Part shown: positions 26,473 through 40,048 of the stretch, piece by piece
Layout: every line of letters begins with the position of its first letter
Numbering within the stretch: the first letter of the stretch is position 1
Assembly (NCBI RefSeq): GCF_009177095.1
Contig: NZ_AP021861.1
Span: 4,694,501 to 4,758,500, forward strand
Direction of reading: 5' to 3'
Length of the DNA: 64,000 bases
From: Lacipirellula parvula
Lineage (GTDB): Bacteria; Planctomycetota; Planctomycetia; Pirellulales; Lacipirellulaceae
Made by a program: the position numbers and the translations under genes
Notes under the pieces: model-generated
What the model was told of the DNA's origin: nothing
What the model saw: the letters and a program-made list of their open reading frames with translations, nothing else
Databases searched by the model: none

Positions 26473-27273
26473 CTAACCATTCTTTCGATGCCAAGCCAAC
26501 GCAACCAAGCCGATGACGCAGAGCGAAGCCGTCGTCGGCTCCGGCACATTGAGCGTCTCCATCACCACCGAACGGACATAGAAATCGGCGCCGCGGTTGG
26601 CTCCCGACTGGGCTCCGAAATAGAGAGCGGATTCAATCTGCGTCGGCGAGGGATTGACAATGATCGGCAGCGCGACGCTCGCGCCGCCGTCGACAGTATA
26701 CGAAAATTCGAAGTTGCCGGCGTTCATTTGCCCGCTCACGACCAGCGTGTGGAAGGCGCCGTCGATCGCAGCGAGCGTCGAGCTGAACCCGAGGACTTCG
26801 ATCGCCTGATCAGCGCCAATGTTGGCGGCTTGCGTTTCGAACTCGGTGCCGTTGAAGCCGAACCGCAGGTTGCCTTTGCCTGAGCTGGTGGTGGCGAGCC
26901 CTTGCCAGACCATCGTGAACTTCAAGCCTTGCGTCAGCAACGCCTGCTGCTGGGCGGACGTCCAGGCGTAGTAGTAGTTGGGAAGATCGACCGACGCGTC
27001 GGTGAGCGTGTCGCGGATGTGGAGCGCTGGACCGCCGGCGAGCGTCTCCAGCGCGACGTTCGCGTTGTTGGCGGTCGTCCCGCTGCCATTCGCGGCAGTC
27101 AACGGGCCGTCGAGGTCGACTTCGTAGGCGAGCCAACCTTGGTCCGTCGGGAGCTGTCCGGTCGAGGCGTCATAGGAGAATAGAAACGCGGCTGATGCCG
27201 GCGGAGCACTGAACGCCCCCACAAACACCGCACAAAGTGAGGCGTAGAGAAGCGTGGCACGGGTGTTCATCAT
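26473..27273 (-). CDS. Lectin-like PEP-CTERM protein
   Basis: 266 residues from the ATG at 27271-27273 (an adjacent ATG at 27270 is possible; GAGGG lies upstream). Residues 2-28 form a signal peptide ending ASAA. The body is one concanavalin-like sandwich, with LKFTMVWQGL, GNLRFGFNGTEFE and VNPSPTQIESALYFG. It is clearly homologous to the first 240 residues of the giant protein at 29009 (VKFTMVWQGL; NVRFGFNNTQFE; VNPAPTQLESAVYFG). The C-terminus is VPEPTTASLCVIGLVAL then WHRKNG. Residing in a sialidase operon, it may bind sialylated or similar glycans; this is inferred. Its stop is 6 bases from the aldolase start. Confidence 0.8.
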   Translation of the reverse strand: MMNTRATLLYASLCAVFVGAFSAPPASAAFLFSYDASTGQLPTDQGWLAYEVDLDGPLTAANGSGTTANNANVALETLAGGPALHIRDTLTDASVDLPNYYYAWTSAQQQALLTQGLKFTMVWQGLATTSSGKGNLRFGFNGTEFETQAANIGADQAIEVLGFSSTLAAIDGAFHTLVVSGQMNAGNFEFSYTVDGGASVALPIIVNPSPTQIESALYFGAQSGANRGADFYVRSVVMETLNVPEPTTASLCVIGLVALAWHRKNG

Positions 27274-27330
27274 TAGTCCCTCGCGGTGGGTTCGAAGTGA
27301 TGCAGAATTGAAGAGGCGAATCAAGCGTGC

Positions 27331-27823: not shown

Positions 27824-28942
27824 TTAGCGCGGCGGCGGGTTGCCGCCGCCAACGCCGTCGCTGCCGGTGACAACGCCGCTCGCTGATCCGCCGCTGACAA
27901 TGTCGTCGTCCGCTTTGGTGGCGTGAGCCCAAAGAACGAGTGCATCAGTGTTTTCACCGAAAAACTGGACGCTGCCATCGGCGAACGCAAAGTGCGCGCC
28001 GCCCGGATGCCAACTCGCAAAGCCATGCTCGCGGTGGAATTCGTCATGGCGATTGCCGCCGTCGCCGTCGAACGGATCGACCGTATCGTCGCGGCCGCCC
28101 GGCACCGATTGCGGACCGTTTACCCCCTGGCCCAAGTCGGCGACATTCCGCGTGATCCAACCGTGAGCCACCCAGACTTTTTGCCCAGCGGCGTCGATCC
28201 CTTCGGCAGAAACCATTTCACCGATGATGAACGTGTTGCTCAGGCCGTCGGTCACATGGCGGGCTTCGACGGCGCTGAAGTTGTAGAGAATCCCTTTGCC
28301 GAACGGCGTCGGCACGAACGGGTGATTTACGTCATCGTCACGTCCAGCCGGCTTGCGGCTGAACGCCTTCCGGCTATCGGCGACGCCGGCCATGTTCGTC
28401 ATTCGCCAGTCCCACGCGGGAACGCCCGCGTGATCCTTATCGGTGCAACAGTCTATCCATGCTTCCTGATTCCGCTCGCTCGGGCAGATGAAGCTGGGGA
28501 TGAGCGTCGCCGCCGCTTCCCACGATCGCGGTGCAAAGTTTCCTTGAGCATTGTTGAAGTCAATCATGCTGAAGACTTGCTGCTGCTCCATGTAGGGAAG
28601 GATATATGCGCCCCAGCCCATACCGGGATAACTATTCGCGTTGGCGCCGGCCGGGATGCCTTTGGTCGGCGTGAAGTTGTAAACGCCGTTAGTATCGGCC
28701 GTGGTGTAGCGTGTGCCGTCTGGAAACGCACCGTGAGCGCTATGGTAGTTCTGCAGCGCGACGCCGACTTGCTTGAAGTTGCTTTGGCAGGTGGAGCGTC
28801 GCGCCGCTTCGCGGGCCGCCTGCACCGCAGGGAGGAGCAGCGCGACCAGGACGCCGATGATCGCGATGACGACCAGCAGCTCCACCAGCGTGAAGCCGGC
28901 TAGACGAGCAAAGCGGTTGCGGCCGAGTAGTGGCGAGTGCAT
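27824..28942 (-). CDS. DUF1559 prepilin-like protein
   Basis: 372 residues if it starts at ATG 28940-28942 (MHSPLLGR), which has AGAGG six bases upstream; an ATG at 28957 would add five residues but lacks such a site. The prepilin motif is [16 protein letters not shown] with [18 protein letters not shown] after it. Family blocks VTDGLSNTFIIGEMV and HPGGAHFAFADGSVQFFGE are intact. The C-terminal 20 residues are Gly/Ser/Pro-rich. It is placed between the giant PEP-CTERM gene and the lipoprotein gene, on the same strand. Confidence 0.92.
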   Translation of the reverse strand: MHSPLLGRNRFARLAGFTLVELLVVIAIIGVLVALLLPAVQAAREAARRSTCQSNFKQVGVALQNYHSAHGAFPDGTRYTTADTNGVYNFTPTKGIPAGANANSYPGMGWGAYILPYMEQQQVFSMIDFNNAQGNFAPRSWEAAATLIPSFICPSERNQEAWIDCCTDKDHAGVPAWDWRMTNMAGVADSRKAFSRKPAGRDDDVNHPFVPTPFGKGILYNFSAVEARHVTDGLSNTFIIGEMVSAEGIDAAGQKVWVAHGWITRNVADLGQGVNGPQSVPGGRDDTVDPFDGDGGNRHDEFHREHGFASWHPGGAHFAFADGSVQFFGENTDALVLWAHATKADDDIVSGGSASGVVTGSDGVGGGNPPPR

Positions 28943-29008
28943 GTGAGACCTCTTCATGTCGAAACAGGGCGTCCGTGCGACGCGAGATCGAATGGGGGAG
29001 TAAGAGCG

Positions 29009-32000
29009 TTATTGGGCGGAAGATTTCCTGCGACGGCGTGCGTGTGCAATGGCGAGCAATCCCACAGCGGCCATGCCAAGCGTCGTTGGCTCGGGAACGC
29101 CGGCAGCAAACACTTCCATGTTCAGTTCCAGTCCGAGTCCCTTGAATGCCTGCCGCAACATAAACGCGTCGTAGAGGTCGACTTCACCGTCGAAGTTGAG
29201 GTCGCCTTGCTGCCGCGTCGCCCAATCGCCGAACTGGACTCCGTTGACGAGCTTCGTCGTCCCCCAGCCTTGGAGCATCTTCGTGACGTCGTCGGTCGCG
29301 GCGGGGCCCGTCCCTGTTCCGGAGACCACGCCGTCGAGGTTGACGTCGGCGAGCGGCTTGCCGGCCAGCTGCGTCGCGATCCACTCATTGTCGGTGGCAA
29401 GGTTGAGCGTGCCATAGTTCGCGGCGTTTGCGGAACTCGTTCCCCAAACCGAGACCTTCACGTCGTCGATCACCCCGCGGAACGGATTGGTTATGGGCAG
29501 ATCTTGCGTCACCCGCGAGCCGCCAACCGTTAGCAGCTGGTTGACGTTGAACTCGACCGCGTCGTTGCGCGCCGCGACTGCAACGCCGTTGATCAGCAGC
29601 GCGCCGCCGACGTTGGACCGGCCGTTCACGCGGTCGCTGAACCCGCTGATCATTTGCACGTGCGACCACTGATTAAAGCCGACGGCGGCGCCGGAGTTGA
29701 TCACCGGTTCGGCGTCGGAAAGGAGGCCCCACTTGTTGTCTTCGGTGATAACGACGCCATGCTCGCCGGTGTTGTTGATAATCTCCTGGCGAACATTCTG
29801 CTGAGCGCTGTTGGGCTTCACCCACAGCTGCATCATCTGGCCGCGAATCCCCTCGTAGTTGTGGGGGAAAGGCGTTGAGGGAAAGAGCGTTGTGCTGTCC
29901 CAGACGTCGCTCGGGACAGCCAGATGGATCGGCGTCCACAGATAGTCGTCGACTCCATCGAACGAAGCCCCGCGCGTGCTGCCGGCGCCAGGGCGATCGC
30001 TGACGCTAATGTACGTCGGCCCGCCAGCAACATTGAGATCCTGGAGGTCACCGGCGCCATTCGTGCCTGCGCTATCGAAGGTTGAACTAAACCCGTTTCC
30101 AGAGCCGAGCACTGCGCCAATCGAGGCGCCTTCGGCTCCGTCGTCGCCGAGGCGGTAGTTGCGGTCGACCGTGACAGCCGCCGTGGCCGTCGTTACCGAT
30201 AGGGCGAGCATGGCCGCCGTGCCGCACGCGACCGAGCGAGCCGCCGCCAAGCGTTTAGGACGCTGATGCACGACGAGGATCGCCGCCAACGTCAATGCCG
30301 CAAGGGCGAACGTCGCCGGTTCAGGTACCGCGGCGACAGTGCTCGTGGCGCTGCCGGGCGTGCCGAACTGGGTTTTCCACACGGTAAGGTCGGCGGCGTT
30401 GACGTTGCCATCGCCATTGGCGTCGCCTTGAGCCTTCGTAGCTGACCCGTTGCTGATGCCAAAGTTGCGTTGCCAACGGAGGAAGTCGGCCCCGTCGACG
30501 ATGCCGTTCGCATCGAAGTCGGCTCCCGAGGCTCCGCCGGTCACATAAGAGACGGCGCCAGTGTAAAGAACCGTCTCGGGCGTCCCAGCGACGTGATATT
30601 CGAAGACCAGATCCTTTGCGTTGATCGTCTTGTTGTAGAGCGTGCCCAGGCTGACGTCGGACATGCCAGTCGCCAACAGCGTCGACTCGCCGAAGGCGCC
30701 TTCCGAGACCTTGCCAGCCGTCGCCGCGAGTTCGCTCCAGACGTTCGAATCGAAGCTCGAGTCGTCGAGGCTCAGCCATTGCCCAGGAGCCAGCGAGTTG
30801 CCGGCGCTGCGAACGCGATAGAGGTCGACGTCGAACGCGACGCCCGACGTGTTCACCAGCGACACGGCGCCCGTCGTCTCGTTCACCTTAAGCGCCAGCT
30901 GGGCCGTGAAGGGCGTCGCCGCGTTGATCCCGTTAAGGCCGGCGAGGTAACGGTTCTGTACTTCGCCGTTGGTGAGACGGCCATTCCATACGGCGAGATC
31001 GTCGATGGCGCCGTTTAGCGCCCAGGTGTATCCCGGCGTGGTCGTTCCCATCCGGTTGTGGGCGCCAATGGTGACGATGTTGGCGCCAATCGCCGCAGGA
31101 CTGGCCAAGCCATCGGCAGCGACGCCGCTATCTTCCAGCACGCCGTCGACGTACAAGCTCCAGCCGGAGGTGTTCTGAGCGTAAGTGAGAAATCGCCACT
31201 GGCCAGTGTTCACCTTGCTGACCGTGACCGCTTCGCCGGTGCCGACGGTAGGCCGGCCCGAGAAGTCGGCGCTCCCCGACGCGATGCCCAGCGGGCCCTG
31301 ATCGCTGACGGCCCGGAACATTACTTCTTCGTTCGCGACGCTGTTGTCGGAGATGCTGAACATCGTGCCGAGCGTGGTCGCGGAGGTCTTCACCCAACCG
31401 GAGACGGAGAAGTTTTCCCCGAGAGTGAGCAACGCGTCGTTGCTGGCGGAGGTGGCGACTGCTAGATGGTCGGCCGTGGTTCCGCCAAACTGCCAGGCGC
31501 TGCCGATGATGCCAGCCGCGCCCGAGTTGACGTTGCCCGCTTTCGTGGCGTTGTGAACGCCGCCGATCGCGTCGGCCGCGGTCGTAGCCCCGGCTGCTTC
31601 GTCGAACTTCCAATGGGCGATGAGGTCCGCAGCATTCGCGCCGGTGCTGCCGGTGACGAAGATCGCTGCCGCGACTGTTGTTGCGATCGTTGCCGCTCCG
31701 GCACGCCGGGCACGCCCCCGTGCGCGACGGCCGCAAGCGAGCAACATTGCTCCCATGGCCAGCAAACCAGCGGTGGCGGGCTCTGGAATCGCGAACGATA
31801 GCGGCGCTGCCCCTGGATTGGCCGCTAGGTACGCGCTGTTAAGCTTCAGAAAGTCGAACTCGTCGACGATCCCGTCTGAGTTGAAGTCGCCCGCCTGATA
31901 GCGTTCCGCTTCCGACTTAGCGAGCGTGTTGGTGCCGAAGCTGAGGCGAAACTTTGTTTGGAAATCGGCGACGTCGAAATCGCCGTCGAAGTCGAGATCG

Positions 32001-33130
32001 CCGAACTTAAAGCGTTGATTGCCGTTACCGTAGTAGCCGATGTGGACTGGCACGACCGATCCATCGGCGAGCAACAACTCGACGGCTAGGTCTTCCGTCG
32101 GGCTCTGCACCCAGACATTCCCGAGATTGATCGTTTGCCCCGTGGCAAAGTTCGCGCCGTCGCCGTCCGGTTCGAACTCGGCAAGGTTGTTCCGAACGGA
32201 GGCGCCGCTCAGCTTGGCCCATTGATCGTTGGGATCGACCGACTGATTGCCGCCGGCGTCGTAGGCGTCGGTAATCGAAGTCCACCCCGTCGGATCGAGG
32301 CCGCCGCCGGCGGATGCGATCGAATAGCCCACGATGTTTAGCGGCGTCGAGTTGTTGACGATCTTCAGCGTGCCGCGCGGGCCGGCGTTGCGATCGATCG
32401 TCGCCGTCAGCGGCAACGTCTCCATCGTGATCGTGCGAACAAGAAAGTCGGAACCGAGGCTCGCGCTTGAGTTGCCGCCAAAATAGACGGCCGATTCGAG
32501 CTGCGTCGGCGCAGGGTTGACGATGATGCTGCGAGAAACTTCTGCGGCGCCATCGACGCTCAAGCTAAAGATGAACTCCGTGCCTACTTTGCGGCCGTAG
32601 ATCGTCAGTGTGTGAAACTGGCCATCGAGCGGCGCAAGCGTCGAGCTGAAATTCGTCACCTCGATTGTGCGGTCGGCCGGAATGTTGCTGTTTTGGGCTT
32701 CGAACTGCGTGTTGTTAAAACCAAAGCGAACATTGCCGTTGCTCGCTCCCGCAGTGAGGCCTTGCCACACCATGGTGAACTTCACCCCTTTTTGCAGCAG
32801 CGTCTCCTGTTGTTGCGTCGTCCAAGCGTAGAGGTAACTCGGCAAGTCGAAGCCGGTGTCGCTAAGCGTGTCGCGCATGTGGAGCGTGGGCACGCCGCCG
32901 ACGGTTTCGATCACCGCATTGGCGTTCGCTGCTGCCGTGCCGGCGACATTCGCCGCCGTGAGCGGCCCTGTCGTATCGACCTCGAACGCCGTCCATCCCT
33001 GCGCCGTCGGCAGCGTGCCGAGCGAGGAGTCGTACGAGAAGACGGCTTCAGCCATCACTGGGTTAGCGATGAGGAGAGTGATCGAGGTAAGGATCGCCGC
33101 CGTGAACAATAATTTTGGTATGCGAGTCAT
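29009..33130 (-). CDS. Triple-unit LamG/dockerin/PEP-CTERM giant protein
   Basis: 1373 residues in one frame, built of three full secreted-protein units. Unit 1 (1-475): signal peptide 1-27, lectin-like domain 28-240, a linker domain 244-375, dockerin-like motifs 378-432, and IPEPAT plus hydrophobic stretch and RRARGRARR (448-477). Unit 2 (478-960): a second signal-like segment ending TGANA (500), LamG-like domain 502-735, linker domain, dockerin 870-922, VPEPAT (935-940), hydrophobic stretch and RPKR. Unit 3 (961-1373): a third signal-like segment ending TATA (984), LamG-like domain, dockerin 1263-1330, VPEPTT and ARRRRK. No in-frame Met begins unit 2, so the units are truly fused. Likely a surface lectin of the sialidase operon. 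Confidence 0.85.
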   Translation of the reverse strand: MTRIPKLLFTAAILTSITLLIANPVMAEAVFSYDSSLGTLPTAQGWTAFEVDTTGPLTAANVAGTAAANANAVIETVGGVPTLHMRDTLSDTGFDLPSYLYAWTTQQQETLLQKGVKFTMVWQGLTAGASNGNVRFGFNNTQFEAQNSNIPADRTIEVTNFSSTLAPLDGQFHTLTIYGRKVGTEFIFSLSVDGAAEVSRSIIVNPAPTQLESAVYFGGNSSASLGSDFLVRTITMETLPLTATIDRNAGPRGTLKIVNNSTPLNIVGYSIASAGGGLDPTGWTSITDAYDAGGNQSVDPNDQWAKLSGASVRNNLAEFEPDGDGANFATGQTINLGNVWVQSPTEDLAVELLLADGSVVPVHIGYYGNGNQRFKFGDLDFDGDFDVADFQTKFRLSFGTNTLAKSEAERYQAGDFNSDGIVDEFDFLKLNSAYLAANPGAAPLSFAIPEPATAGLLAMGAMLLACGRRARGRARRAGAATIATTVAAAIFVTGSTGANAADLIAHWKFDEAAGATTAADAIGGVHNATKAGNVNSGAAGIIGSAWQFGGTTADHLAVATSASNDALLTLGENFSVSGWVKTSATTLGTMFSISDNSVANEEVMFRAVSDQGPLGIASGSADFSGRPTVGTGEAVTVSKVNTGQWRFLTYAQNTSGWSLYVDGVLEDSGVAADGLASPAAIGANIVTIGAHNRMGTTTPGYTWALNGAIDDLAVWNGRLTNGEVQNRYLAGLNGINAATPFTAQLALKVNETTGAVSLVNTSGVAFDVDLYRVRSAGNSLAPGQWLSLDDSSFDSNVWSELAATAGKVSEGAFGESTLLATGMSDVSLGTLYNKTINAKDLVFEYHVAGTPETVLYTGAVSYVTGGASGADFDANGIVDGADFLRWQRNFGISNGSATKAQGDANGDGNVNAADLTVWKTQFGTPGSATSTVAAVPEPATFALAALTLAAILVVHQRPKRLAAARSVACGTAAMLALSVTTATAAVTVDRNYRLGDDGAEGASIGAVLGSGNGFSSTFDSAGTNGAGDLQDLNVAGGPTYISVSDRPGAGSTRGASFDGVDDYLWTPIHLAVPSDVWDSTTLFPSTPFPHNYEGIRGQMMQLWVKPNSAQQNVRQEIINNTGEHGVVITEDNKWGLLSDAEPVINSGAAVGFNQWSHVQMISGFSDRVNGRSNVGGALLINGVAVAARNDAVEFNVNQLLTVGGSRVTQDLPITNPFRGVIDDVKVSVWGTSSANAANYGTLNLATDNEWIATQLAGKPLADVNLDGVVSGTGTGPAATDDVTKMLQGWGTTKLVNGVQFGDWATRQQGDLNFDGEVDLYDAFMLRQAFKGLGLELNMEVFAAGVPEPTTLGMAAVGLLAIAHARRRRKSSAQ

Positions 33131-33267: not shown

Positions 33268-34764
33268 TCAAGGCGTGCCGCGCAAGGCGCAGGTGATCAG
33301 GCCGATCACGAACAACTGCAGGGAACTGGCTTCAGGGACTTGCGTGAGTTGAGCCAGCCCTTCAGCTGAAAGCCCGCTCGCGATAAGTTGCTGACGAAGT
33401 TCGAACACGTCGGCCAAGCTCAGGCGGCCGTCGAAATTAAGATCGCCATTCGCGTAGCTGTCGACGCCGCCCAAAAAGTACTCGCCCGATAGCGGAGTCC
33501 AGGCGGCGATGAACGCCGACACGTCTTGCTGATTGAAGACGCCGTCTTGATCGACGTCGCCGTGAACTCCGTTCCACGGCGCGGGATCGAGATCGTCGTA
33601 ATCCATGTAGGCGAACAGAATCTCGTCGTAGAGCGAATCGCCCGCCTCGAACAGGACGCCGAACCGCTCGTCATTGAGCTTCACGAGATCGGAGTAGGCC
33701 GCGGGGCCCTGGTGAATGACTGTCGACTTGCTCCAAGACGCCGTTTCGTCGTTGCTGACGCGAATCGTGAGATCTCGCCGAGCCGATGCATTCCCGGGGC
33801 CCGAGTAAAGAATGACGTTCTCCGCATCGCCTTCGTCGACGGCGCGGAAGCGGATTCCGGAGTTCTGCACGACCGGCGTCGTGATCCGTGGATCGTGGAC
33901 GAACTGCGGCTGATCGTACGTCATTCCGCCGTCGCTACTGTAGGCGAAGACGCGATTGCCAGGATTGTCGGCATGGCCATCGCGAGCATTGAAGTAAACG
34001 CGTCCATCAACAAGTTCGACGGCGAAGTTTTCGTTCGGCGACGAGTCGGACTGGCTTCGGACATTCGTGTCGACGGCGCCGATTTGCCACGTTTGGCCGT
34101 GATCGTCGCTGTAGAGGACGTGAGCGCCTTGCGCCGCGTTCGGGGCCCCGTGATCGGAGGGGATGATCAGGCGACCGGCGTGATCGCCGCGTGTTAGTTG
34201 AATTCCTTGCACTGGCCCCGTCGCGTACCAATCCCACGTTGGATTCTTAGCAGTCGACGTGATTTCGACCTGGTTCGACCAAGTAACGCCATGGTCGTCG
34301 CTGTAGGAAATGAAGACGCGATCATTCTCCAGCGTGAACGGCAACCAGATCCGGCCGGGGTGGGCAGGATCGAGCATGTCGACCACCGGCGATTGATTGC
34401 CGACGGTAATCGGCGGCGGCGTTTGGCCGGCGGGGAAATATTGGCGAAAGTCGGCGTTGTCTTGCACGACTTCAAGCGGGCTCCACGTTTTACCAGCGTT
34501 CGTCGAGCGTTTGACGACAATGTCGATCTCACTCGCGTCGCCTCCCTCGCGGGCTTCGGCGAAGGCAAGCAAATCGCCGTTGGCCGCCTTCACCATCGTG
34601 GGAATGCGGTAGATGTTGTAGCCCTCGGTTCCCGACTGGTAGACCGGAACTTTGAAGACGCCGGCAGTCGCCTGGGGCGCCGGCGCGCAGGATGCGGCGA
34701 CCACGCCCGCAACGACGGCTAGCTTTCGGCAAACAACTTTGCAGACGTGCAATTCCACGCTCAT
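33268..34764 (-). CDS. Surface sialidase with dockerin and PEP-CTERM-like tail
   Basis: About 498 residues from ATG 34762-34764 (MSVELHVC), with AAGGA just upstream; starts at 34779 and 34836 are in frame. A signal peptide is followed by FKVPVYQSGTEGYNIYRIPT, the sialidase start with the YRIP motif, then Asp-boxes STNAGKTWSP, YSDDHGVTWSN and YSDDHGQTWQI, and SSDGGMTYDQ. After the propeller come dockerin-like motifs (DVDQDGVFNQQDVSAFIAAW; DLNFDGRLSLADVFELRQQL). The end reads VPEASSLQLFVIGLITCALR, i.e. PEA instead of PEP, with a very short tail (GTP). Unlike the 24259 sialidase it is probably sorted to the cell surface. Lies between the regulator gene and the giant protein gene. Confidence 0.87.
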   Translation of the reverse strand: MSVELHVCKVVCRKLAVVAGVVAASCAPAPQATAGVFKVPVYQSGTEGYNIYRIPTMVKAANGDLLAFAEAREGGDASEIDIVVKRSTNAGKTWSPLEVVQDNADFRQYFPAGQTPPPITVGNQSPVVDMLDPAHPGRIWLPFTLENDRVFISYSDDHGVTWSNQVEITSTAKNPTWDWYATGPVQGIQLTRGDHAGRLIIPSDHGAPNAAQGAHVLYSDDHGQTWQIGAVDTNVRSQSDSSPNENFAVELVDGRVYFNARDGHADNPGNRVFAYSSDGGMTYDQPQFVHDPRITTPVVQNSGIRFRAVDEGDAENVILYSGPGNASARRDLTIRVSNDETASWSKSTVIHQGPAAYSDLVKLNDERFGVLFEAGDSLYDEILFAYMDYDDLDPAPWNGVHGDVDQDGVFNQQDVSAFIAAWTPLSGEYFLGGVDSYANGDLNFDGRLSLADVFELRQQLIASGLSAEGLAQLTQVPEASSLQLFVIGLITCALRGTP

Positions 34765-34867
34765 CAGTTCCTTCGTCATGCGAGCAGCGCCTAGGCGCTC
34801 GCTGCCGGCCGGGTCGAGCCCGTGCCCGCGTTTCAACGGTCCGCTTGGCCGTTGGGAAAAGTTCGTG

Positions 34868-36334: not shown

Positions 36335-37306
36335 ATGACTCAACCCCTCACGGGATTAATTGCTGCGACCTACACCCCGATGCACGAGGATGGTTCGCTC
36401 AACCTCGACGCCGTCCCCGCGATGGTCAACCACTTGGAACGCTCGGGCGTCCGCGGTATCTACATCTGCGGCAGCACAGGCGAAGGGGTCTCGCTTACCG
36501 GCGTTGAGCGTTGCGACGTCGCCGAGGCGTACATCAGCGCGGCCAAGGGGCGGCTGAGAACGATCGTGCAGGTCGGGCACAACTCGATCGCCGAGGCCCG
36601 GCAGCTGGCGAGTCACGCCCAGCGATGCGGCGCCGACGCCTTCTCGGCAATTCCGCCCTTCTACTACAAAATCGAGACGATGCAGATGCTCGTCGATTGC
36701 GCCGCGCAGATCGCCGGCGGCGCGCCGGAATTGCCGTTCTACTACTACCACATTCCGGCGTTCACCGGCACTTCGGTCGACATGGTCGATTTCATGTCCG
36801 CGGCGGGCTTGCGGATTCCTAACCTGGTCGGCCTCAAATACACAGCCCACAAAGTTTTCGAATTCCAAGCATGTCGGGAACTCAACAACGGCCGCTTCGA
36901 CGTCGTGTGGGGCGCCGATGAGATGCTGCTCGCTGGCCTGGCAGTTGGCGCTCGGGGAGCGATCGGCAGCACCTACAACATTGCCGCGCCGCTCTATCGC
37001 GACATCATCGACGCGTACGATCGCCAAGACATGGAGCTTGCGCAAGAACTGCAAATGCGTTCGGTCGCGCTCGTGCGGTTGCTCAACAAATATCCGTTCC
37101 ATGCGGCGACGAAGGTGGTCCTCGAACTGTACGGCCTCGAAGCGGGACCATGCCGTGAGCCGCTGGCCTCGCTTAGCAAGGCCCAGAAGGCTCAGTTGGC
37201 GATCGATCTTGAAGAATCGGGCTGCTGGGAATGGCTGCGGCCAGGCGAAGCGGCCGCCACGAAGCCGAAGCACGCTGTCTCCAACGGCGTGGCGGCGCGC
37301 GAGTAG
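36335..37306 (+). CDS. nanA: N-acetylneuraminate lyase
   Basis: 323 residues, normal for the family plus a short C-terminal tail. GSTGEG at 46-51 is the carboxylate-binding loop, Y138 in YYYHIPAFTG the catalytic Tyr, and K168 in VGLKYTAHK the Schiff-base Lys. GAIGSTYNI, preceded by ADEMLLAGLAVGA, matches lyases of the NanA group closely. The enzyme splits N-acetylneuraminate into ManNAc and pyruvate in the cytoplasm. It is the first gene of the rightward group and is followed by the NanM-like/symporter fusion, which fits uptake and breakdown of sialic acid. Of the two DapA-family proteins in the locus, this is the canonical one. Confidence 0.9.
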   Translation: MTQPLTGLIAATYTPMHEDGSLNLDAVPAMVNHLERSGVRGIYICGSTGEGVSLTGVERCDVAEAYISAAKGRLRTIVQVGHNSIAEARQLASHAQRCGADAFSAIPPFYYKIETMQMLVDCAAQIAGGAPELPFYYYHIPAFTGTSVDMVDFMSAAGLRIPNLVGLKYTAHKVFEFQACRELNNGRFDVVWGADEMLLAGLAVGARGAIGSTYNIAAPLYRDIIDAYDRQDMELAQELQMRSVALVRLLNKYPFHAATKVVLELYGLEAGPCREPLASLSKAQKAQLAIDLEESGCWEWLRPGEAAATKPKHAVSNGVAARE

Positions 37307-37320
37307 TCGTCGAGCTTAGG

Positions 37321-37348
37321 CGGGCGCGACCACTCTCGGTCGCGCCCG
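37321..37348 (+). terminator. Strong hairpin between nanA and the transporter gene
   Basis: CGGGCGCGACC (37321-37331) and GGTCGCGCCCG (37338-37348) form a perfect 11-bp stem with a six-base loop. It is followed by a pyrimidine-rich stretch (CTCTCTTCTTGCTCTTCTC) rather than a plain T-run. It may be a partial terminator, an mRNA-stabilising stem for nanA, or an attenuator before the transporter gene, which starts 39 bases later. Confidence 0.6.
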
Positions 37349-37387
37349 CACCTCTCTTCTTGCTCTTCTCTTCCAGGCAGTGTCACG

Positions 37388-40048
37388 ATGGCCCCATCAG
37401 TTACCATTGCTGTCGCGCGGCTGCAGCGTTGCACCGCCTTCGTCTGCGGGGCGGCAATCGTCTGCCTTGCATCCTTACATTCCGCCGCAGGAGCTGAGTT
37501 GCCAAAGTTCACGCAAGCGCCCATTCGGTGGGAGCAACTCGCTCCGCTGCCCGACGCGGTCGGATTCGCTGGTTCCGTGGCGGGACTTGATCGCGGGACG
37601 CTGCTGGTCGCGGGCGGTGCGAACTTCCCACAAGGGCGCCCCTGGGACGGCGCGACGAAAACCTGGCATGATCGCGTCTTCGTCCTCCGTGCTAACGCGA
37701 AGGAGTGGGAAGAACTTGCTGCCCGCCTACCGCGGCCGCTCGGTTATGCGGTTTCAGCAACGACGCCGTATGGCATCGCCGTGGTCGGCGGCAACAATGC
37801 CGACGGAGTTTACAGCGACGCATTCTTACTGCGGATTGAAGACAATGATTTAGTGACCGAACCGTTGCCGCCGCTACCGCTGCCGCTCGCAAACGCGGCG
37901 GGGGCGATGATCGGCGCGACGCTCTACATCGCCGGCGGGCAATCGGCGGCGGATGCCAACAAGATCGAGTCCTGTTTCCTCTCGATCGATCTCGCCCAAC
38001 CTGCCGACAAGCGTGCGTGGGTTGAACTCGAAACATGGCCCGGTCCGCCGCGGATGCTGGCAACGGCCGGCGTCCAGGAAGGAGCGTTTTACCTCTTTGG
38101 CGGCGTTGAACTCTCCGCCGACGCAGCCGGCACGATTCAGCGGCGCTACTTGAAAGACGGCTACCGTTACCAGCCGCAGCAAGGGTGGCGCCAGGTCGCC
38201 GACATGCCGCGACCAGTCGCCGCGGCGCCGACTCCGGCGCCGGCGCTGGGAACTTCGCACCTCTTGATCGTCGGCGGCGATGACGGCGAAAACGCCTCAC
38301 GAGTAGCGGAACTTAAGGACTCGCACCCCGGCTTCCCCCGTGCGAGCTTGGCTTACCACACCGTCACCGATCGCTGGGTATCCGCCGAGGAACTTCCCTT
38401 CTCGCTCGCCACGACGCCGACGATCCGCGACGGTGCGAGCGTCATCATCCCAGGCGGCGAAACTCGTCCCGGCGTACGCACCAATGAAGTGTGGCGGGGT
38501 ACGCTCACCCCGCAGCGCGCGGAGTTCGGACTTCTCAATCTTTCCGTCCTGGGCGTGTATCCGCTGATCATGCTCGGCATCGGAGTGTGGTGTTCGCGCC
38601 GATCGAAAGACGCCGATGGTTTTTTTCGCGGCGGCCAGAGAATCCCGTGGTGGGCCGCCGGGCTGAGCATCTATGCCACGATGCTCAGTTCGATCACGTT
38701 CATGGCGATTCCGGCCAAGGCCTTCTTTAGCAATTGGTGGTTCATCTTCAGTCAGATATCAGTGATCGTGCTGGCGCCGGTGATCATTGCCGTCTACTTG
38801 CCGTTTTTCCGGCAGCTCAATCTCACGAGTGCGTACGAATATTTGGAGCATCGCTTCAATCTGGCGGTCCGCTGGTTCGGTAGCGCTTCGTTCATCGCGT
38901 TTCAGATCGCTCGCACTGGCATCGTCCTCTACCTGCCGGCGCTGGCCCTGTCGACGGTGAGCAGCATCGACACCACCACCTGCATCGTGGGAATGACGCT
39001 GCTGACGATCGTCGTCACCTACTTCGGGGGAATGGAGGCGGTGATTTGGACCGACGTCGCGCAGTCGATCATCCTCCTCGCGGCGGCGGCGCTATCGCTG
39101 GCCGTAATCGCCTGGCAACTCGATGGCTCGACGATCGACTTATTTCGCGCGGCGGCGAGCGATGGCAAGTTTTTCCCCGCGATTCCCGTGTCGCCTGATT
39201 TCGCCATCGAGTCGGTGTGGGTGTTGGTGCTTGGAACATTCTTCGCCACGCTCATCTCCTACACCTCGAACCAAGAAGTCGTGCAGCGATTCATGACCAC
39301 CAGCGATGAAAAGCAAGCCGCCCGCGCGATCTGGGTAAACGCCTGGCTGTCGCTGCCGTCGGGGATGCTGTTCTTCGCCGTGGGCACGGCGCTCTACCTC
39401 TTTTATCAGCAGTTCCCTGAACGCCTCGACCCGGGCCTCGCGCGGAATGATGCGATTTACCCGTTCTTCATGGTCCACGAACTTCCGCCCGGATTGGCAG
39501 GTTTTGTGGTCGCCGGTATCTTTGCCGCCGCCCAGCCAACGAGCAGCCTCAACAGCGTCGCCACGGCGGTGGTCACCGATTTCTATCAGCGGATGCGGCC
39601 CGCAGCGAGTCCGAAGAGTCGCGTCCGCGTCGGCCGCGCGGCAACGATCATCACCGGGCTGGCCGGCATGGCAGTCGCGCTCACGATGGAGCAGTTTCCC
39701 GTCGAATCGCTTTGGGAATTGTTCCTCAACGTGCTCGGTTTAACCACCGGCATACTGGCAGGTCTCTTCTCGCTTGGCATTCTGACGAAGCGAGCTCATG
39801 GAACGGGCGCGCTACTCGGCGTCGCGGCGTGCATTGCGGCGATGTGGGCGGTGTCTGAGTACGGAGACGTTCACGCGATGATGTACGGCTGCTTGGCCGT
39901 CGTCGTCAGCTTTGGCGCCGGCTATCTTTTTAGCTTGCTGCTCCCCGGCGCCACGAAGCAACTGGAGGGGTTGACGATTCATACGCAGCGATCGATCGCG
40001 TCCTCGCCAGTGTCGGCATCGTTGGCTGCGCTTGCCGCGCACTCCTAG
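37388..40048 (+). CDS. Fused Kelch mutarotase (NanM-like) and sodium/solute symporter
   Basis: 886 residues. Residues 1-36 form a signal peptide. About 45-375 is a Kelch-type propeller as in N-acetylneuraminate mutarotase NanM: VAGGANFPQGRPWDGATKTW, IAVVGGNNADGVYSDAFLL, LYIAGGQSAADANKIESC and SVIIPGGETRPGVRTNEVW. About 395-870 is a sodium/solute symporter of the SSS family, with 12-13 membrane segments, LTSAYEYLEHRFN, ISYTSNQEVVQRFMTT and AAQPTSSLNSVATAVVTDF. The propeller would sit outside the membrane, convert the alpha anomer released by sialidases, and hand the sugar to the transporter. Fusions of this kind are known. It lies 81 bases after nanA. Confidence 0.92.
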   Translation: MAPSVTIAVARLQRCTAFVCGAAIVCLASLHSAAGAELPKFTQAPIRWEQLAPLPDAVGFAGSVAGLDRGTLLVAGGANFPQGRPWDGATKTWHDRVFVLRANAKEWEELAARLPRPLGYAVSATTPYGIAVVGGNNADGVYSDAFLLRIEDNDLVTEPLPPLPLPLANAAGAMIGATLYIAGGQSAADANKIESCFLSIDLAQPADKRAWVELETWPGPPRMLATAGVQEGAFYLFGGVELSADAAGTIQRRYLKDGYRYQPQQGWRQVADMPRPVAAAPTPAPALGTSHLLIVGGDDGENASRVAELKDSHPGFPRASLAYHTVTDRWVSAEELPFSLATTPTIRDGASVIIPGGETRPGVRTNEVWRGTLTPQRAEFGLLNLSVLGVYPLIMLGIGVWCSRRSKDADGFFRGGQRIPWWAAGLSIYATMLSSITFMAIPAKAFFSNWWFIFSQISVIVLAPVIIAVYLPFFRQLNLTSAYEYLEHRFNLAVRWFGSASFIAFQIARTGIVLYLPALALSTVSSIDTTTCIVGMTLLTIVVTYFGGMEAVIWTDVAQSIILLAAAALSLAVIAWQLDGSTIDLFRAAASDGKFFPAIPVSPDFAIESVWVLVLGTFFATLISYTSNQEVVQRFMTTSDEKQAARAIWVNAWLSLPSGMLFFAVGTALYLFYQQFPERLDPGLARNDAIYPFFMVHELPPGLAGFVVAGIFAAAQPTSSLNSVATAVVTDFYQRMRPAASPKSRVRVGRAATIITGLAGMAVALTMEQFPVESLWELFLNVLGLTTGILAGLFSLGILTKRAHGTGALLGVAACIAAMWAVSEYGDVHAMMYGCLAVVVSFGAGYLFSLLLPGATKQLEGLTIHTQRSIASSPVSASLAALAAHS

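Follow-up and report, generated by a model that had tools for sequence, protein, structure and literature searches.

Serial PEP-CTERM sorting tags in a probable secreted polyprotein of Lacipirellula parvula and in its multi-unit relatives across the Lacipirellulaceae

Viruses are well known for polyproteins that cellular proteases cleave; from bacteria few are known. In the cytochrome b/c1 polyprotein FbcH of Bradyrhizobium, and likewise in the viral polyproteins that are cut by signal peptidase, one chain is cleaved at internal signal peptides and carries no C-terminal sorting tags. The subject of this report is an open reading frame (ORF) on the minus strand of Lacipirellula parvula that encodes three consecutive units, A, B and C, each ending in a PEP-CTERM sorting tag; it occupies positions 29009-33130 of the 64,000-nucleotide stretch that we analysed (contig NZ_AP021861.1, positions 4,694,501 to 4,758,500; hereafter the window). 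Canonical PEP-CTERM proteins share with this ORF an N-terminal signal and a tag composed of a PEP motif, a hydrophobic stretch and a basic cluster, but their tag lies at the extreme C-terminus, with fewer than 10 further residues in 87% of proteins (Haft 2006, PMC1569441). In ZepA, an ordinary PEP-CTERM protein, both end signals are apparently cleaved on export (PMC10957091). Internal sorting tags have been described before: HVO_0405 of Haloferax volcanii is a strain-specific natural fusion of two once-independent genes whose central site is cut in an ArtA-dependent manner (PMC7157517; PMC9263693), the archaeosortase ArtA being exosortase-like (PMC11980579), and processing has been proposed for the internal MYXO-CTERM of Myxococcus xanthus MXAN_5598, which probably arose from gene fusion (PMC11980579). 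The original prediction for the window ORF, that no protein of this design is described, was too strong in the light of these two cases. We consider it quite likely that the ORF encodes a secreted polyprotein that signal peptidase I and an exosortase would cut at each junction into separate surface proteins.

The frame opens with ATG and is free of stops for 1373 codons (29009-33130; like all parts of the ORF on the minus strand), and its A-B-C organisation is evident from Pfam matches and from a stop-free orthologue. Pfam PF07589 (PEP-CTERM) matches three stretches of the product, each with a PEP motif, a hydrophobic stretch and a basic cluster; tag 3 takes the extreme C-terminal position, while tags 1 and 2 are internal and are directly followed by a signal-peptide-like stretch, as had been claimed from the sequence. 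Residues 448-500 and 935-984 thus each run from IPEP or VPEP through a hydrophobic stretch, an Arg/Lys cluster and a second hydrophobic stretch to an AxA motif. Unit A comprises a signal peptide that ends in VMA (residues 1-27, 33050-33130; recognised in the sequence and in the orthologue alignment) and a mature part (residues 28-447, 31790-33049) with a variable N-terminal domain, a domain shared with unit B and dockerin-like repeats, assigned by alignment and by a unit-B profile that matches A. It is followed by internal PEP-CTERM 1 (residues 448-477, 31700-31789), with IPEP, hydrophobic stretch and Arg cluster, detected by Pfam and in the junction survey described below, and by signal-peptide-like stretch 2, which ends in ANA (residues 478-500, 31631-31699; called from the sequence by the junction criteria). 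The mature part of unit B (residues 501-934, 30329-31630; Pfam and profile) holds a LamG domain (563-725), the domain shared with unit A and a dockerin (871-918), and leads into internal PEP-CTERM 2 (residues 935-960, 30251-30328), with VPEP, hydrophobic stretch and basic residues, again from Pfam and the survey. Signal-peptide-like stretch 3 (residues 961-984, 30179-30250; sequence and junction criteria), which begins at a TTG codon, precedes the LamG-like and dockerin-like mature part of unit C (residues 985-1344, 29099-30178; Pfam and unit-C profile) and the terminal PEP-CTERM 3 (residues 1345-1373, 29012-29098; sequence and Pfam). The expectation of three LamG-dockerin units was borne out in part: Pfam finds two dockerin stretches, Laminin_G_2 in unit C and two stretches of Laminin_G_3, of which the one in unit B scores best; the scan did not confirm a LamG domain in unit A. 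In structure prediction the domain common to A and B (4 sequences) reached a mean predicted local distance difference test (pLDDT) score of 41, and unit C (2 sequences) one of 29.

The window genome is assembled as one contig of 6.92 Mb. According to the original prediction, another strain with junctions interrupted by stops or frameshifts would resolve the ORF into three genes. We made the comparison with G004, a congeneric species, whose 83% identical orthologue is an open frame of 1421 codons with no stops and no frameshift at the junctions. That a sequencing or assembly error deleted the stops between the units has next to no probability: we found no supporting point for it, the orthologue refutes it, and dozens of relatives come from other assemblies, several of them single-contig. 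Identity between the two orthologues is 86%, 87% and 88% in mature A, B and C, compared with 55% and 45% in the two junctions, 37% in the N-terminal signal and 58% in the terminal tag; omega over the full ORF is 0.10, and the two junctions give 0.31 and 0.55, which are rough values (49 codons each, with a synonymous divergence, dS, near 1). Judged by these alignments, the junction sequences change as fast as the leader and tail sequences, yet their features are kept.

The original prediction saw one protein of what turned out to be a family of dozens. A unit-C profile search of 43 Lacipirellulaceae genomes, in which up to 47 candidates were scored per genome and all family counts are lower bounds, returned at least 81 matches at 140 bits or more, lying in frames of at least 1250 codons (58), 850-1249 codons (7) or fewer (16). 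When 80 of these 81 loci were scored with B and C profiles, unit C proved to be joined to other units in 65, mostly as A-B-C. Altogether, two or more units share an ORF in at least 71 cases from 21 genomes, some of them single-contig, in the orders A-B-C (51), A-B (6), B-C (6), A-C (3), C-A-B (2), A-A-C (2) and B-C-A (1); since the A and B labels come from a single profile (which, built for B, also matches A) at one 120-bit threshold, the A-C and A-A-C tallies may include diverged B units. Mean column identity of unit C is 37% over 18 rows. Among 246 genomes drawn evenly from the order, unit C occurs in 24 at an E-value of 1e-20 or better, all from this family. One ORF (L116) bears five tags and contains tandem, near-identical signal-domain-tag units of about 262 residues, linkers included, with the unit A ahead of it ending early; another (L106) has four tags. 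Given the permuted orders (C-A-B, B-C-A) and the duplication of whole units in L116, each unit looks like a self-sufficient module, and the polyproteins appear to grow through whole-module duplication (L116, L106).

Multi-tag ORFs also extend beyond the unit-C loci. Among 19 places examined in the window genome, five have several tags (two each in L148, L149, L157 and L161, three in L159), and other long ORFs there have a terminal tag only. A junction-profile search of ten other family genomes yielded, among the matches listed, full-length stop-free matches in nine, the exception being G034; 18 of the 20 places so found hold ORFs of two or three tags, most with an A/B-type unit, while by our test L196 showed no multi-tag ORF, and in L207 there is just one internal tag. 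In L199 (G019), an ORF of 888 codons carries three tags, and the stretches behind its first two junctions open alike (SVGVNFGA and SVGVSFGA), each with a signal and a tag of its own. Across the phylum, the matches listed by the same profile are mainly ordinary terminal tags, and outside the family the full 45-position matches among them come from two genomes, G404 (two rows) and G322 (one row), which belong to other planctomycete families and each show an internal junction at the one locus examined; as this listing gives the best matches of up to 18 scored candidates per genome, it does not speak to rarity elsewhere. In a genome from another family of the order (G046), PEP-CTERM-like matches were seen in open frames of 7330, 8905 and 12608 codons.

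We then compared the 127 internal junctions of the fused ORFs, calling signal peptides by simple hydropathy and motif rules rather than with a trained predictor. An exact PEP is present in 125 (the other two read PEH and PEG); every one of the 127 has a loop whose net charge is +2 or more and, after it, a second hydrophobic stretch, which [AVST]xA follows in 122. All four criteria were jointly passed by 117 of the 127 junctions; of 1380 windows taken from mature parts none did so, and of 1270 shuffled junctions 39. The pattern is therefore not due to chance. PEP and AxA-type motifs, which are candidate processing sites, thus lie between the units. The residue profiles of the 127 internal tags are like those of 102 terminal tags, with V before PEP in 108/127 and 89/102, respectively; the terminal rows had been selected for a PEP within 45 residues of the end, and among all unit-bearing ORF ends of the same loci PEP is found in 105 of 114, the nine others including truncated or degenerate ends. 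This position-by-position match differs from a remark in Haft 2006 (PMC1569441), where PEP-CTERM tags in atypical places are said to tend to vary more. One deep clade, of 18 rows, contains joined unit C only; there both junctions retain PEP in 18/18, whereas most of their remaining positions are variable. The original prediction had left a choice between a polyprotein and a membrane-looped giant, an uncut chain in which the hydrophobic hairpins remain and tether three domains together. The junction topology is consistent with such multi-pass insertion, but a mere anchor needs neither PEP nor AxA, and their near-universal retention, along with relatives in which the units are separate tagged proteins, makes the looped giant improbable; the polyprotein is the alternative that the comparative evidence favours.

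These split relatives, which lay outside the view of the original prediction, are among the strongest evidence for a polyprotein, as one ORF here encodes what are separate proteins elsewhere. Their arrangements are A|BC, AB|C, A|B|C and C|AB. At most of the 17 split loci examined the upstream gene stops shortly past the basic cluster, and a Met and a signal-like start are available to the next ORF; three of the loci, L112, L129 and L133, are broken or truncated. A quick unit-C tree of 80 sequences (65 joined and 15 split rows, one support value) requires a minimum of 8 changes between the joined and split states, 6 of them forced by well-supported branches, and in L066, a neighbour of the window pair in this tree, A is a separate gene and B-C are fused. 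Such repeated changes could also reflect recent neutral fusions whose internal signals are decaying, in keeping with the suggestion about internal tags in Haft 2006 (PMC1569441). However, the internal signals are intact despite the low mean identity of unit C, and also in the deep, wholly joined clade, and the whole-ORF omega relative to the G004 orthologue is 0.10. In light of these results, neutral fusion is disfavoured, and we assign it very little probability.

Start codons at the junctions bear on whether B and C could be translated separately. It had been claimed that no in-frame Met starts unit 2 or precedes the third signal-like stretch. Between the hydrophobic stretch of tag 1 and the second signal there is indeed no ATG, GTG or TTG, but ATG459 and ATG462 lie within the tag 1 stretch, TTG961 is the very first codon of the third signal-like stretch and lacks a Shine-Dalgarno-like sequence ahead of it, and ATG974 lies within that stretch; a clean argument from the lack of any Met was dropped on account of these four codons. 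Across all 127 junctions, the segment separating the two hydrophobic stretches is devoid of ATG, GTG and TTG in 54 and keeps an ATG in 33, 16 of these with a Shine-Dalgarno-like sequence, which is found at 7% of random positions. This pattern fits once-separate genes in which loss of the stop would have preceded loss of the start. It also lends something to the notion of a stop-less operon, in which B and C would come mostly from internal translation starts and the read-through product would be a by-product, and TTG961 could be such a start. Against this stand the 54 junctions with no such codon and junction 1 of the G004 orthologue, which has no ATG, GTG or TTG anywhere from PEP to AxA, so that unit B with its signal cannot start separately there via the usual start codons; moreover, ribosomes arriving from upstream would read through anyway. 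We hold the stop-less operon to be as improbable as the looped giant.

Genes for the machinery of both predicted cuts were found. An exosortase (PF09721) is found in 42 of the 43 family genomes, with one match in the window genome; this protein scores above the general TIGR02602 cut-off and above none of the listed subtype cut-offs, and it matches TIGR04178, the joint exosortase/archaeosortase model. An S26 signal peptidase is also present. In the mechanism that we propose, the ribosome would make a single chain and the Sec pathway would thread unit A outward until the first PEP-CTERM hydrophobic stretch halts transfer and keeps its basic cluster facing the cytoplasm; the hydrophobic stretch that comes after would act as an internal signal peptide and restart transfer, and likewise for B and C. 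The basic loops would set each PEP hydrophobic stretch N-out/C-in and the following signal N-in/C-out, creating a hairpin at every junction. As the features of each unit are those of a lone PEP-CTERM protein and the basic loops orient the stretches, the hairpin should be cuttable from both sides: signal peptidase I would cut after each AxA and the exosortase at each PEP, the hairpin from PEP to AxA would be discarded, and three independent surface proteins would result at 1:1:1. We also noted a protein of 1742 residues in G017 (L165:229-5454, minus strand) that opens with an exosortase domain followed by a long array of TPR repeats, and, judged by frame length, similarly long exosortase frames in four more genomes (G015, G025, G061, G010); G025, G017 and G015 are among the four genomes richest in fused unit-C loci.

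Several observations weigh against the polyprotein interpretation. The junctions that keep an ATG, many preceded by a Shine-Dalgarno-like sequence, count here too, as do TTG961 and the two ATGs inside tag 1 of the window ORF, and separate starts may contribute in some family members. Five of the 127 junctions fail the [AVST]xA test, and five more fall below the first hydropathy threshold (1.14-1.38 against 1.4). That an exosortase would cut at an internal tag is what we infer here from sequence, and Haft 2006 (PMC1569441) raises the possibility that the rare long-tailed PEP-CTERM cases are non-functional. Finally, the role in glycan capture discussed below is drawn only from neighbouring genes and from LamG and dockerin matches. 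Nevertheless, the polyprotein interpretation is well supported by the comparative evidence, with cleavage itself as its predicted step.

The gene content of the window suggests what A, B and C may do. Just downstream of the ORF lies a DUF1559 / H-X9-DG pseudopilin-like gene (27824-28957, minus strand; Pfam and motif), and upstream a BNR sialidase-like protein is encoded (33268-34836, minus strand; Pfam) whose dockerin match is weak, falling short of the Pfam cut-off, and whose C-terminal tail is of the PEA type and has no exact PEP. Divergent from these, the same locus holds two genes assigned by domain matches (36335-40048, plus strand), a DHDPS/N-acetylneuraminate lyase-like gene and an NANM-SSF (epimerase-transporter) gene; in the latter (37388-40048, plus strand) an N-acetylneuraminate epimerase (NANM/kelch) domain is fused to a sodium:solute symporter. 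In total, the surroundings hold two BNR sialidase-like genes, two of the DHDPS type, one NANM-SSF and one GntR regulator. With sialidase, lyase, epimerase and transporter genes together, the locus is by gene content a putative sialic-acid utilisation cluster, and A, B and C are most likely its glycan-capturing set. A stand-alone PEP-CTERM protein of 283 residues (26473-27324, minus strand), 56% identical to residues 7-241 of unit A, is a possible loose fourth member. The commonest families among 108 neighbour proteins from 21 loci are DUF1559, with 19, and the prepilin motif, with 15; a direct motif test found the prepilin motif within 1.6 kb after the units on the same strand at 44 of 80 loci; it was not found at 28 loci with enough sequence, nor at 8 more with less than 700 bases left. 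The likeliest role would be glycan capture at the cell surface by such a set, to which a pilin-like protein is often added.

More broadly, and with less assurance than for the window ORF itself, we favour the view that the whole bacterial family makes surface glycan-capture sets as serial polyproteins. The PEP-hydrophobic-basic-signal-AxA hairpin would then be a general self-removing linker, cut by exosortase and signal peptidase I, so that secreted subunits could do without stops and starts between them and, after decay of the start codons, could not easily regain these. The dozens of loci point to polyproteins as the routine form in which the secreted subunits of one family are made, and a giant ORF in such genomes may represent several surface proteins. 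The family also speaks against the idea that PEP-CTERM tags in internal positions have no function (Haft 2006, PMC1569441).

In the open-licence PMC literature on PEP-CTERM/exosortase polyproteins, planctomycete polyproteins and multiple tags per protein we found no description of a serial, family-wide bacterial version. Among the closest known systems, HVO_0405 is, like the window ORF as judged by its sequence, a gene fusion with a centrally placed tripartite tag (PMC7157517; PMC9263693), and it differs in being one fusion with one internal site and a PGF-type tag, in an archaeon and as a substrate of twin-arginine translocation (Tat) (Abdul Halim 2017). The cutting of a short tail is hard to see on a gel, and HVO_0405 gave archaeosortase work an easy size-shift assay (PMC7157517); A-B-C chains could provide one for exosortase. 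MXAN_5598 likewise has an internal sorting tag that is probably due to fusion, but its protease is a myxosortase, such cases are called rare, and the part downstream of the tag is a beta-barrel/OmpA region (PMC11980579). Unlike HVO_0405, the chains described here carry up to five tags, with a fresh signal-like stretch behind every internal one, and they are spread over a bacterial family. Thus, while the internal sorting tag itself was already known, what is new relative to these precedents is the serial, modular, permutable and family-wide arrangement.

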